From an uncultured Eubacteriales bacterium (GTDB taxonomy: Bacteria; Bacillota; Clostridia; Oscillospirales; Acutalibacteraceae): a stretch of DNA of 33,297 nt. The translations under genes were made by a program, and so were the position numbers. Positions 8,715 through 31,826 of the stretch are shown here, piece by piece (position 1 is the stretch's first letter; every line of letters begins with the position of its first letter). The notes beneath the pieces were generated by a model. That model saw only the letters and a list, made by a program, of their open reading frames with translations, made no database searches and was not told the DNA's origin. The stretch lies in the NCBI GenBank assembly GCA_900316025.1, contig ONBJ01000013.1, positions 9,883 through 43,179 of the forward strand, in the 5' to 3' direction.

Positions 8715-8838
8715 TTCAAGGGCTTCGCCCTTAAAAATCCTGTTTTCAGTTTAAGGGTTTCACCCTTAAAAATCCTGACGAGGGCTCTGCCCTCGACCCG
8801 CAAGCCTTTGAAAAGGCTTGACCTAAACTTTATGGTTT
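8715..8838 (-). repeat. Modular hairpin repeat, copy 1
   Basis: Read on the minus strand: AAACCATAAAGTTTAGG lead, AAGCCTTTTCAAAGGCTT stem, GAGGGC-AGA-GCCCTC stem, TTAAGGGTGAAACCCTTAA stem, a short linker, then a second AAGGGCGAAGCCCTT stem. It fills the gap between the thioesterase gene and gyrA and ends about 25 nt before the gyrA start, immediately upstream of the gyrA ribosome site. In frame it mimics protein ([14 protein letters not shown]), which explains the false extension of gyrA. Confidence 0.9.
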
Positions 8839-8863
8839 ATGTTGAATATGTTTTATAGGGGTG

Positions 8864-9283
8864 TTATTCGGCTAAGCTTTCGCTCAGACTTTGGTATATA
8901 TCGGGGAAAAGCTTTTTCGCATTGATTGGCTTGAAAGTCGTACTGCTGACAAAGCCGTGTTCTGTAAAGCCTGTGTTTACAAGTTCGTTTTCGGAGTTAT
9001 AGATATTGTAGCCGAACTTTATCTTTGCAGGTCTGATTTCCTCCACAAAGGCTTCGACCGTAATTTCATCGGAAAAGTAAAGAGCCTTTTTATATCTGCA
9101 TTCAAGGCATATAAGGGGAAGCATAAGACCTTTTTCTTCAAGCTCCTTATATGTCACGCCGAAAAGCTTTATAAAATCCACTCTTGCCTGCTCATAGTAA
9201 AGTGCATACACGGAATGATGAACTATTCCCATCATATCCGTTTCGCCGTATCTTACAGTAATTGAGGTTATGCTCTTTTTCAA
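8864..9283 (-). CDS. Acyl-CoA thioesterase, YbgC/4HBT hot-dog family
   Basis: 139 residues, the usual size of a single hot-dog domain. The N-terminal motif RYGETDMMGIVHHSVY contains the catalytic Asp16 and the His-rich turn of the 4-hydroxybenzoyl-CoA thioesterase/YbgC branch, which hydrolyses acyl-CoA thioesters in the cytosol. The start is TTG at 9283 behind AAGGTGAT. It lies between the YcxB-like gene and gyrA, on the same strand. The acyl substrate cannot be predicted. Confidence 0.88.
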   Translation of the reverse strand: MKKSITSITVRYGETDMMGIVHHSVYALYYEQARVDFIKLFGVTYKELEEKGLMLPLICLECRYKKALYFSDEITVEAFVEEIRPAKIKFGYNIYNSENELVNTGFTEHGFVSSTTFKPINAKKLFPDIYQSLSESLAE

Positions 9284-9314
9284 ATATAATCACCTTGTTT
9301 TCAGAGAAAATACA

Positions 9315-9911
9315 CTATAAGTCCATCATACCTTTTCTGAGTATTCCAAGAACTCTTTCCTTGCTTCTATCCGCAACGGCTCTCAGCGGAATTACGAACA
9401 ACTGATTGTCTTTAAGTCGTTTTATTATTATGACATTTTTTGAAATACGGATTTTATTGGAATTGTCAAGTTCTATAAGCCAGCTATTATCGTTGCAGAG
9501 AATATGCAGACAGTCCTCATAAAGACGGAATTTTATTGAATTTCCGTTGGCATTTACCTTTGCAAGCTTTTTAAGGGATATAATGGGGACAGTCCAGACG
9601 ATTGCAAGAACAACGGCTGAAATAAACGTAAATACAATATCGTTGAAGTTTCCCTTTACAGCATAGGAAAATATAAATCCTGCCATAGCAAGTAAGAGAA
9701 GCACGTTATATACAACAGAGCGAATGCCTGTAGTTTTTATCATTCCCGAATTTTTAAGTCCGTCATAGGCTTCTGAGTCAGTTAGGGTAAATTCGTTTTC
9801 ATAGACTAAAATTCCTTTGGTGCGGAACTTGTTTATTTCCTCCGAGCTGTGAACCTCATGAAGTATGCTGTCTATATGCTCGTTATTATGCTCATTAGTG
9901 TTATTTTCCAA
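9315..9911 (-). CDS. YcxB-like membrane protein
   Basis: About 198 residues. The N-terminal 65 residues are polar and acidic (Asn/His/Glu-rich at the start). Two hydrophobic helices follow, near 69-88 and 93-112 counted from an upstream GTG. The C-terminal 85 residues, with YEDCLHI, a strand-rich core and IIIKRLKDNQLFVIPLRAV, resemble the PH-like YcxB C-terminal domain found in many uncharacterised Firmicutes proteins. The family has no known function. AGGTGA precedes a TTG at 9911; a GTG three codons upstream at 9920 is the alternative start. It lies between gyrB and the thioesterase gene with short gaps, so is probably read with gyrB. Confidence 0.65.
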   Translation of the reverse strand: MENNTNEHNNEHIDSILHEVHSSEEINKFRTKGILVYENEFTLTDSEAYDGLKNSGMIKTTGIRSVVYNVLLLLAMAGFIFSYAVKGNFNDIVFTFISAVVLAIVWTVPIISLKKLAKVNANGNSIKFRLYEDCLHILCNDNSWLIELDNSNKIRISKNVIIIKRLKDNQLFVIPLRAVADRSKERVLGILRKGMMDL

Positions 9912-9941
9912 TAAAATCACCTGTCAAACACACAAAATACG

Positions 9942-11894
9942 TTATATGTCAAGGTTCTGAACATACTTTGCATTCTGCTCTATAAATTCACGTCTGGGTT
10001 CTACCTTATCGCCCATAAGAATGGTAAATATTTCGTCAGCGGCTTCTGCGTCAGAAAGCTCTACCCTGAGCATAACTCTTGTTTCGGGGTTCATAGTAGT
10101 TTCCCAGAGCTGTTCGGAGTCCATCTCACCAAGACCCTTATATCTCTGAATATCGCTTTTTCCGTCTATCTCACTGAGTATTTTATCTCTTTCGAGGTCG
10201 GTATAAGCGTATTTATGCTCCTTGTTTTTAGTAATTCTGTAAAGCGGCGGCTGTGCTATATATATATGACCCTGTTCCACAAGAGGACGCATAAATCTGA
10301 AAAAGAATGTAAGTAAAAGGGTTCTTATATGCGAGCCGTCAACATCGGCATCAGCCATAATTATTACTTTGCCGTATCTCAGCTTTGTAATGTCGAAATC
10401 CTCACCGATACCTGTTCCGAGTGCGGTTATAACAGGCATAAGCTTGTCATTTCCGTAAACTCTGTCAAGACGTGCTTTTTCTACATTGAGCATTTTTCCC
10501 CAAAGCGGAAGTATAGCCTGAAAACGTCTGTCACGGCCGCCCTTTGCCGAGCCGCCTGCGGAATCTCCCTCTACGATGTATATTTCGGTTTCTTCTGAGT
10601 TTCTGGACTGACAGTCTGCAAGCTTACCGGGGAGAGAAGCATTTTCCATAGCGGATTTTCTTCTTACAAGCTCCTTAGCCTTTCTTGCAGCCTCTCTTGC
10701 TCTTGAAGCGGCGAGAGCCTTTTCAAAAATCATCTTAGCGGCAGAGGGGTTTTCTTCAAGATAAATTCTGAGCTTTTCGCCTGTCATTTTTTCAACCATA
10801 GTTCTCATTTCGGTATTTCCGAGCTTCGTCTTTGTCTGACCCTCAAACTGAGCCTCTTTAAGCTTTACGCTTATTACAACAGTAAGACCTTCTCTTAAAT
10901 CCTCACCTGAGAGATTTTTGTCGTTATCCTTGAGAATACCGAATTTTCTTGCATAGTCGTTCATAACTCTTGTAAGACCACGCTTGAAACCGTCCTCAGC
11001 CGTACCGCCGTCCACGGTGCGTATATTGTTGGCAAAGGAACGGACTATTTCGTTATATCCTTCGTTGTACTGCATGGCAACCTCAGCAGATGCACTGTCA
11101 TCTGGAGCGGTTGTGCTGAAATATATTATATCGGGGTGAACTACGTCAAGTTCTCTTTTTTTGTGTATATATTCAACAAAGCTTTTTATACCGCCGTCAT
11201 ACTTGAAGCTTTTGCTGACAACAGCATCATCGTCACGCAAATCTCTGAGTTCTATGTGCAGACCTGCATTAAGAAAAGCCTGTTCTCTCAGCCGTCTTTC
11301 AAGTATTTCAAACTCATACTTTGTTGTTTCCGTAAATATTTCGGGGTCAGCCTTGAATATTACCTCTGTACCCTTGTCTGAGCCTTCGCCTATCAGTTCA
11401 AGCTCAGTTATTGTATCGCCTCTTTCGTATCTCTGCCTGTATACTTTTTCGCCGTCACATACTGTAACCTCAAGCCATTCCGAAAGTGCGTTTACTACGG
11501 AAGCACCTACTCCGTGCAGACCTCCCGATACCTTGTATCCGCCGCCGCCGAATTTTCCGCCTGCGTGAAGAACGGTAAATACTACGGTTACGGCAGGTAT
11601 TCCCATTTTTTCATTTATACCTACAGGTATACCTCTGCCGTTGTCCCTTACACGGATTATATCATCGGGCAGTATCTCAACCTCAATTTTTGTACAGTAA
11701 CCTGCCAGTGCTTCGTCTATGGAGTTGTCAACTATTTCGTAAACAAGATGGTGCAGTCCCGACGGGCCTGTTGAGCCTATATACATACCAGGTCTTTTTC
11801 TTACTGCCTCCAGTCCCTCCAAAACCTGAATTTCGTTGGCACCGTATTCATTTTCAACCTTAGTTATATCAGGTGTTATATCAGGATTATCCAA
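9942..11894 (-). CDS. gyrB: DNA gyrase subunit B
   Basis: 650 residues, the Gram-positive length without the extra insertion of enteric GyrB. It holds the GHKL ATPase ([36 protein letters not shown] in the first 130 residues), the transducer domain, and the TOPRIM domain with [10 protein letters not shown] and [14 protein letters not shown], whose acidic residues bind magnesium. The C-terminus [11 protein letters not shown] is the standard GyrB ending. With GyrA it makes the A2B2 gyrase that removes positive supercoils. The start is TTG at 11894, 8 nt after GGAGGG. Unlike in Bacillus, gyrB and gyrA are separated by two unrelated genes. Confidence 0.97.
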
Positions 11895-31218: not shown

Positions 31219-31248
31219 ACTTTAATTATTAAGGAAGGTTATGATGTT

Positions 31249-31683
31249 ATGAAAATGGATAATCCTATTGCAAAGATTTTAGTTCCGATAATTTTGTTGA
31301 TAGGCGGTATTGTATTTCTTGTTCTCGGAATAAATGCTCTTACAGCTGTAAATTCTTTTACAGAGATTTCTGCTGTTGTTTCAAAGATAGAAATTCAGCA
31401 GAGTGCTGACCCTGACGAAAGTCCTTCAAGCACAATATATGTTAAGTATAAGATGAACGGCAAGGAATATAACGAAATTTTGCAGTTTTCAGGCAGCGAC
31501 TATACAGAAGGGGAAACAGTAAAGGTATTATGTGACCCGAACAATCCCTCATATGTTACGGGAGCAACTATGACAAGTTCGATAATTTACATAGTAATAG
31601 GTGCTGTAATGGCTCTTATAGGACTTGGTATAGGTGTAAGTCCGTTTGTGTTTGTATGGCTTGGAAGAAGACAGAGTATGTAA
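31249..31683 (+). CDS. DUF3592 domain membrane protein
   Basis: 144 residues. Two hydrophobic helices (about 9-30 and 110-137) flank an extracytoplasmic beta-rich domain of about 75 residues with IYVKYKMNGKEYNEILQFSG and GETVKVLCDPNNPSYV, the pattern of DUF3592 proteins. Function is unknown. ATG at 31249 is 10 nt after AAGGAAGG; ATG codons at 31241 and 31244 are in other registers or lead to an early stop. It may be read through from guaB. A strong terminator follows 12 nt past its stop. Confidence 0.8.
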   Translation: MKMDNPIAKILVPIILLIGGIVFLVLGINALTAVNSFTEISAVVSKIEIQQSADPDESPSSTIYVKYKMNGKEYNEILQFSGSDYTEGETVKVLCDPNNPSYVTGATMTSSIIYIVIGAVMALIGLGIGVSPFVFVWLGRRQSM

Positions 31684-31695
31684 TATAAATAATTT

Positions 31696-31728
31696 GCCCT
31701 GATACCGCTAAGCGGTATCAGGGCTTTT
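31696..31728 (+). terminator. Terminator after the DUF3592 gene
   Basis: GCCCTGATACCGC/GCGGTATCAGGGC, a perfect 13-bp stem with a TAA loop, then TTTTG. The core matches the hairpin at 26056, and both stand 15-20 nt before a hairpin-repeat copy. Confidence 0.85.
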
Positions 31729-31737
31729 GTATCTGGC

Positions 31738-31826
31738 GTTAAAGGGTTTCACCCTTAAAAATCCTGACGAGGGCTCTGCCCTCGACCCGCAAGCCTTTGA
31801 AAAGGCTTGACCTAAACTTTATGTTT
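31738..31826 (-). repeat. Modular hairpin repeat, copy 8
   Basis: Minus orientation: CATAAAGTTTAGG lead, AAGCCTTTTCAAAGGCTT, GAGGGC-AGA-GCCCTC, TTAAGGGTGAAACCCTTTAA-type stem. It lies between the convergent DUF3592 and AEC permease genes and ends about 20 nt from the permease stop codon. Flank TTTTTGTACGTCA is shared with copy 6. Confidence 0.9.

Follow-up and report, generated by a model that had tools for sequence, protein, structure and literature searches.

A 33,297-nucleotide stretch of DNA from an uncultured bacterium of the Acutalibacteraceae, order Oscillospirales (contig ONBJ01000013.1, positions 9,883 to 43,179; hereafter the window), carries eight copies of a dispersed, non-coding, modular hairpin repeat whose defining unit couples a lead to a hairpin. 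A single-stranded lead, A(2-4)G-T(n), comes first in this unit; a linker joins it to a hairpin that typically has the tip C-T(n+1)-C-A(n)-G, where n is 3 to 7 and equal in all three runs; the window form has n = 3. Comparison of sequences shows that the three runs (lead T, tip T and tip A) covary in length, whether inside one genome or between distant hosts, and that the unit is also present in plasmids of Acetobacteraceae, in viral contigs and in further families of the order. A preliminary description of the window missed both the length lock and the reach beyond the lineage; its observation of the repeat is confirmed, and its interpretation is partly supported.

The length lock was scored in 236 lead-bearing hairpins, of which 220 had a lead T-run as long (n, 3 to 7) as the count of T-A pairs at the tip of the hairpin, termed stem A. 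This figure excludes 101 hits selected by patterns that fix lead and tip together; pooled with them it becomes 321 of 337. Counted as distinct units, 103 of 119 matched, and the 103 carry 93 distinct stems. When leads were shuffled only within those genomes or contigs, 18 in all, in which n takes more than one value, the observed 101 matches in 109 compared with a permutation mean of 60.3 and a maximum of 80 in 20,000 trials. Since the lock survives this within-genome permutation, shared descent is not its explanation. A single genome (G001) holds n = 3, 4, 5 and 6, and there 22 of 22 matched. In the first comparison of left ends, 34 of 39 unique ones were equal by the A-run, AAAGTTT occurring with CTTTTCAAAG and AAAGTTTT with CTTTTTCAAAAG; n = 7 was found later. 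Stretches from nine genomes of the order, seven picked by the n = 5 tip and two (G016 and G001) by similarity to a window copy, yielded leads in eight genomes, all 27 of them matching. In viral contigs, where hits were picked by the tip alone, 92 of 94 leads matched where the stem extends at least 3 bp (n = 3, 10/10; n = 4, 5/5; n = 5, 34/34; n = 6, 43/45), as did 7 of 10 with a lead and a shorter stem.

Selection for structure, proposed in the preliminary description, is borne out by the stems. Among 45 distinct viral-contig hits picked by lead and tip sequence alone, with stems unselected, the four tip-adjacent pairs were Watson-Crick in 40, 38, 40 and 36 cases versus 17.7, 12.1, 12.8 and 14.5 expected from column composition, and all four pair types were used. 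RNA folding covered copies 1, 2 and 6 of the eight window copies and gave z-scores of -3.9 to -4.0 (-4.0 for copies 1 and 2, -3.9 for copy 6), with 0 of 200 shuffles folding as well; the RNA fold of copy 2 reaches -33.3 kcal/mol.

Seven of the eight window copies show the full module order of lead AAAGTTTAGGTC, stem A, one or more middle stems and an AAGGG stem. Their left end reads (AAACC)AT-AAAGTTTAGGTC-AAGCCTTTT(C/T)AAAGGCTT-GCGG, with minor variation ahead of the lead. Behind it stand B1 (GAGGGCAGAGCCCTC), B2 (CCAAAGGC..GCCTTTGG) or a series of middle stems, and then TCAGGATTTT-TAAGGG..CCCTTAAAC or a near variant (stem C). The fixed order of short palindromes described earlier holds in these seven; it fails in copy 5, which has neither lead nor stem A, and the lead itself, the most informative part of the element, is non-palindromic. 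In the host genome, the hairpins B1, B2 and C are exchangeable behind the unit of lead and stem A. One middle stem was present in 53 of 60 scored host-genome copies, two in 6 and four in 1, and 6 further copies lacked a recognized stem C. The motif CGTC follows B1 stems and is absent from the common B2 copies, where the linker is TGGTC or TGGTG. The element ends share a weak inverted similarity (GTTTAGG in the lead versus ..CCTTAAAC). All eight copies reported earlier are present at their positions, four in each orientation, as follows.

Copy 1, 8711 to 8838, minus strand: lead 8820-8831, stem A 8802-8819, middle stem B1 8780-8794, stem C 8750-8770 and, at the end with the lower coordinates, another AAGGGC stem C; it lies between gyrA and its upstream gene and overlaps coding sequence only in the upstream extension of the longest gyrA open reading frame (ORF).
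Copy 2, 12839 to 12960, plus strand: lead 12846-12857, stem A 12858-12875, B1 12883-12897, stem C 12907-12927, second stem C 12940-12960.
Copy 3, 17477 to 17571, minus strand, upstream of dnaA: lead 17553-17564, stem A (TT tip) 17535-17552, B2 (CCAAAGGC) 17509-17527, stem C 17480-17500.
Copy 4, 20718 to 20850, plus strand: lead 20725-20736, stem A 20737-20754, B2 20762-20780, stem C 20789-20809, extra AAGGGC stem 20829-20850.
Copy 5, 24896 to 24965, plus strand, without lead or stem A: palindrome AAAATCCTGACCAAAGGC-AGA-GCCTTTGGTCAGGATTTT containing B2 24916-24934, then stem C 24944-24962.
Copy 6, 26099 to 26190, minus strand, between two parS-like sites: lead 26171-26182, stem A 26153-26170, B1 26131-26145, stem C 26101-26121.
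Copy 7, 29487 to 29649, plus strand: lead 29495-29506, stem A 29507-29524, four middle stems (29532-29545, 29553-29571, 29578-29591 and 29599-29618), stem C 29627-29647.
Copy 8, 31737 to 31828, minus strand: lead 31809-31820, stem A 31791-31808, B1 31769-31783, then an AAGGGT stem.

Copies 1 and 2 form an inverted repeat of each other, identical at 90 of 90 nt. The identity over about 70 bp noted earlier for copies 1, 6 and 8 was found again and extends to copy 2.

The family is not restricted to this region. A lead-plus-hairpin search of 633,254 bases of the host genome (G000, a metagenome-assembled genome [MAG] of 2.08 Mb in 98 contigs) returned 69 matches versus 3 in one shuffle of that sequence; 2 of the 69 are, by reading, coding false positives, leaving 67 true. 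The same search in a sister genome (G005) returned 31 matches in 422,625 bases versus 0 in the shuffle. Because the matches so far outnumber those in shuffled sequence, chance is excluded. The sampled 30% of the host genome has a density of ∼106 copies per Mb, which would make ∼220 copies genome-wide if the sample is fair; as the sample consists of contig stretches, most with BLAST hits, the figure is possibly slightly high. With genes called by a codon-usage prediction script, all 70 host-genome copies meeting the length-lock criterion were intergenic, in sequence of which predicted coding covers 83%. The REP/BIME-like dispersed family suggested earlier is thus found genome-wide and in related genomes as well.

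Copies also have a preferred setting among genes. In 65 host-genome copies with both neighbors within 600 bp, both neighbors were sense in 34 cases, both antisense in 17, convergent in 12 and divergent in 2. Between co-directional genes, sense copies outnumbered antisense 58 to 26 over the host, sister and G001 genomes (p = 0.0006), and 61 to 31 (p = 0.002) after adding G016, which alone gave 1 to 1, and 17 stretches from other families of the order. Copies often follow shortly after a stop codon, and in about one third a strong hairpin resembling a terminator comes next downstream of the lead. Strong hairpins, defined by a stem of 9 bp or more, were present within 125 nt downstream of the lead in 24 of 68 host-genome copies and upstream in 2 of 68; the corresponding counts in the sister genome were 11 and 2 of 31. 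An element tends to be flanked by a gene on its lead side and by a terminator on the other, and the downstream hairpins in the host genome look like two-way terminators.

Beyond the host, the exact n = 3 unit occurs in at least 89 stretches of genome contigs, including Pseudoruminococcus massiliensis, and the same left end is present, among the matches listed, in records titled Oscillospiraceae, Ruminococcus, Clostridia, Pseudoruminococcus and others. Different right halves, e.g., GTCGCTCTCCGCAGAGAGCGAAA, stand behind this left end in other genera. Nine loci from such genera (L041, L049, L053, L076, L092, L033, L047, L067 and L082) hold longer, species-variable multi-hairpin elements behind it, without an Rfam match, and three copies in one MAG (L053, L058 and L063) share an extra insert inside the repeat, starting GTGCGTGACCGCACACGAC. 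An n = 5 tip search across the order was positive in 81 of 197 genomes, and in some of them the matches greatly exceeded those of a reversed-pattern control (43 versus 0 in G141). In a draw of 398 genomes from the phylum, the exact n = 5 pattern was without a match in the other 397; the draw held few genomes of the order, and none of these came from the rich families f17, f20 and f21.

The n = 5 unit was also found in 63 stretches of viral contigs with GC contents of 0.31 to 0.71, and in plasmids of Komagataeibacter and Novacetimonas (Acetobacteraceae) at 13 places in 6 records, the best place of each being without an annotated feature. Of five plasmid places read, three had a matching lead and tip and two had a damaged hairpin. 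At two plasmid loci, from Novacetimonas and Komagataeibacter (L632 and L633), a pair of units is opposed, with a lead at each outer end, a REPIN-like arrangement. At another locus (L027, 6466-6823), two type II elements meet at their tails and together make up a near palindrome of ∼360 bp, and four viral contigs of GC 0.56-0.64 (L371, L385, L397 and L417) have two lead-hairpin units ∼90-100 bp apart with leads facing, often with pyrimidine-rich stretches outside. One window copy, compared by BLAST with named phages and plasmids, had no match. Of two viral stretches compared with named phages, one had no match, and the ten matches listed for the second were to terminase genes only, covering at most 4% of its length.

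We compared occupied sites between relatives. The sister genome is 87-89% identical to the host genome in this region, and 19 of its 31 elements could be mapped there; by a loose motif test, all 19 sites were filled in the host genome too. Therefore, most of these insertions predate the split, and the recent spread inferred in the preliminary description is not upheld; the change since then lies in the inner modules. In the other direction, 21 host-genome elements were mapped to the sister genome, with 19 sites filled and 2 empty, and in a sparse relative of the same genus (G004, 4 matches) 5 of 5 mapped window sites were empty. No clean target-site duplication could be read at the empty sites of these two genomes, which are too diverged. 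Middle stems differ at 9 of the 19 sites filled in both species, where flanks are 81-98% identical; the script behind this count is coarse, masking added AAGGGC stems and counting one neighbor in error, and reading by eye gives about the same number. At the site of copy 3 the sister genome has B1 and an AAGGGC stem in place of the B2 version, at that of copy 4 B1 in place of B2, at that of copy 5 a full-length element, and at that of copy 7 middle stems differing in number and order. A third-stem variant, AAGGGTGAAGCCCTT, occurs in 6 of 26 sister-genome copies versus 0 of 61 host-genome copies with a recognized third stem. These comparisons point to mostly old sites at which hairpin modules have apparently been exchanged or converted between dispersed copies, not to recent insertions. 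Such exchange at fixed sites would offer a naturally occurring example of conversion among short repeats at dispersed positions.

What might the length lock be for? For a triple helix of the U·A-U type in the major groove, two runs of U and one of A must be equally long, and in the pyrimidine triplex motif the third strand runs parallel to the A-strand. Because the unit offers U, U and A runs of equal length and a 5′ lead able to fold back parallel to the A-strand, we propose docking of the lead at the tip of the hairpin it precedes. The reading we tentatively favor, short of confidence, is that of a REP/BOX-like element (REP, repetitive extragenic palindromic) whose lead would dock as a U·A-U triplex and which would act in 3′ untranslated regions. 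The docked lead could create a compact fold at the mRNA 3′ end that hinders exonucleases or insulates neighboring genes. Copies may have arisen through rare insertion by a putative mobilizer and been reshaped later by conversion or exchange of hairpin modules among dispersed copies. A wider version, which we hold to be doubtful though worth stating, is that the length-locked lead and tip would be a widespread motif, not found described, forming U·A-U (or T·A-T) triple helices in Oscillospirales, Acetobacteraceae and many viruses, and amplified by bacteria into REP/BOX-like repeats at mRNA 3′ ends.

If the lead does dock as a triplex, a repeat class would gain a mechanism and a motif searchable in many genomes, and the triple-helix motif, if true, would be a bacterial and viral counterpart of eukaryotic RNA stability triple helices. 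The length rule predicts a specific fold that is testable with short synthetic RNAs or DNAs. In Clostridium cellulolyticum, selective RNA stabilization has reportedly been linked to stem-loops. Selective RNA processing and stabilization have been mapped in that species (PMC4423207).

Several observations weigh against docking in RNA. Scoring was conditional, a hairpin being counted only if AAG with no fewer than three T stood in the 40 nt upstream of it, and 226 of 330 distinct viral tip contexts have no AAG-T lead, 93 of the 226 with an extended stem. The length rule is broken in 16 of the 236 hairpins, some through chance leads and some really; 2 of 67 host-genome leads have a broken T-run and another 2 a changed G, and more degenerate copies escape the search. 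The window form, with n = 3, would provide three triples only and would be weak alone. Linker length rises with lower-stem length only modestly (Spearman 0.28, p = 0.0014, 129 distinct units). G·U and A·C stem mismatches are few, and their count mixes element stems with adjacent terminators, so that they leave RNA versus DNA undecided. T-runs accompany the downstream hairpins on both strands (lead strand 15/68 and opposite strand 15/68 in the host genome; 4/31 and 7/31 in the sister genome) and therefore do not fix the direction of transcription. Finally, viral contigs show no sense bias (38 sense, 48 antisense) and the 17 stretches from other families of the order gave 2 sense to 4 antisense, neither of which a purely RNA role would predict.

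The lack of sense bias in viral contigs sits more easily with the chief alternative, a REPIN-like mobile single-stranded DNA whose folded lead and hairpin would be recognized by a transposase, replicase or relaxase; docking would be needed in the substrate, and the length lock would be a mobility requirement. This is possible without being probable. High copy number and intergenic spread fit it, as do the inverted dimers with outermost leads in the two plasmids, the ∼360-bp tail-to-tail near palindrome, and the empty sites (in G004, all 5 of the window sites that were mapped; in the sister genome, 2 of the 21 mapped from the host genome). Against it, PF01797 (Y1/RAYT; RAYT, REP-associated tyrosine transposase) had 0 matches in five genomes (G000, G003, G004, G005 and G016), the intact Y1 protein of G022 reads as an ordinary IS200 TnpA, no lead unit was seen in the 1-1.5 kb read beside Y1 loci, and no clean target duplication marks the empty sites. 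We rejected RAYT/Y1 as the mobilizer in the host genome, the whole of which is free of PF01797 matches; in 3 of 8 genomes (G001, G002 and G022) the matches are degraded or IS200-like with no lead unit in their flanks, other transposase families not having been searched. Nor did any transposase appear near the copies, as stated earlier, among the 20 window ORFs of at least 230 aa that were read, smaller ORFs being left unread. If the lock serves mobility instead of docking in RNA, it points to a recognition system other than RAYT.

The matched runs could also be a product of mutation, which we regard as unlikely: template switching during replication (quasi-palindrome correction) between the lead and the complementary arm would copy run length and keep stems perfect. 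Template switching has been put forward as a process that generates and preserves RNA hairpins (PMC8794818), the lead T(n)G is in many cases a match to the complement of the tip CA(n), and copy 5, where an inverted copy of linker and B2 yields a palindrome with an 18-bp stem, has the look of two halves fused by a template switch. Yet in the units listed the base before the lead T-run stays G and not the template's C, although the searches required G and 2 of 67 host-genome leads differ there, and the avoidance of divergent gene pairs (2/65 in the host genome) points to selection on position. Slightly less likely again is a protein-binding DNA site of nucleoid, gyrase or recombinase type, with matched A-tracts read by the protein. 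Gyrase, IHF and similar proteins bind Escherichia coli REPs, and the units stand in either orientation in viral contigs; a binder of double-stranded DNA, however, would favor one A-tract length, and here a single genome has values of n between 3 and 6, the runs changing in step. Least probable of all, in our estimate, are ordinary terminators or neutral REP/BOX-like junk, with the lock due to shared descent of a few sublineages. That copies follow stop codons and that many are related would suit this account, but hairpins of window copies have no following T-run, a separate strong hairpin comes after 24 of 68 copies, and the lock holds under within-genome permutation and over 93 distinct stems. 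The intrinsic terminator was accordingly rejected as the principal explanation, given the missing T-runs and the separate strong hairpins often found downstream.

The preliminary description knew of no named family for this sequence, and our searches agree. Rfam 15 gave no match at any window element, only tRNAs, a NiCo riboswitch and an L10 leader at 16 loci of relatives, no match at 12 viral loci, and only sub-threshold matches in a permissive scan of copy 2. No description of the repeat family was found in the open-access literature, subscription journals lying mostly outside that coverage, and we have not seen the lead-hairpin length rule described. To our knowledge, REP- and BOX-like repeats have been studied for decades without their function being settled. 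The nearest design is the pneumococcal BOX (boxA-boxB(n)-boxC), which is likewise modular, small, intergenic and highly base-paired, with fixed ends and a variable number of middle modules (here 1, 2 or 4). BOX elements show slow present insertion and likely act when co-transcribed, according to the accessible text of PMC3049150. They differ in lineage and in module design, and a lead T-run locked to a tip is not described for them in that text; we set them apart by description, not by alignment.

REPs usually number >100 copies per genome (PMC2817692). They are extragenic palindromes that bear an unpaired tag at one of their ends, and their main location is downstream of genes (PMC3733652). 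The repeat resembles REP, BIME and REPIN elements in its many copies, intergenic location and proximity to 3′ ends, and in the inverted dimers of two Acetobacteraceae copies. It differs in two features that define REPs: its tag is A(2-4)G-T(n) in place of the GTAG or CGTC that in REPs stands unpaired beside a palindrome of 20-40 bp, and its host genome is without a RAYT match. Window copies are single, unlike paired REPINs; two-unit inverted forms occur at L632 and L633, and another arrangement at L027. The terms Firmicutes, Clostridi- and Ruminococc- do not occur in the main text of PMC3733652. Miniature inverted-repeat transposable elements such as RUP are also non-coding, short, present in many copies and weakly inverted at their ends, whereas here there are separate hairpins instead of one fold and no target duplication was seen, the empty sites being diverged; transposase ends were looked for at Y1 loci only.

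Triple helices of the ENE/MALAT1 type have two U-runs and one A-run, as does the present unit. In the latter, however, one U-run would be a 5′ lead docking on its own hairpin, the setting is bacterial and viral DNA, and the triplex is suggested by length covariation alone. The MALAT1 triple helix protects an RNA 3′ end (PMC11411715).

The genes read from the ORFs of the window are gyrA, gyrB, recF, dnaN, dnaA, yidC, jag, mnmE, mnmG, rsmG, noc, parA, parB, serS and guaB, i.e., a dnaA-gyrase region. The sequence TGTTTCACGTGAAACA, which we take to be parS-like by the parS consensus, has five exact sites near noc, parA and parB (20634-20649, 23773-23788, 26023-26038, 26212-26227 and 27114-27129), and copy 6 sits between the third and the fourth. 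Inside gyrA there is a 30-nt direct repeat (6479-6508 and 7091-7120, 90% identity), and a tRNA gene (Rfam RF00005) lies at 5372-5445 on the minus strand.

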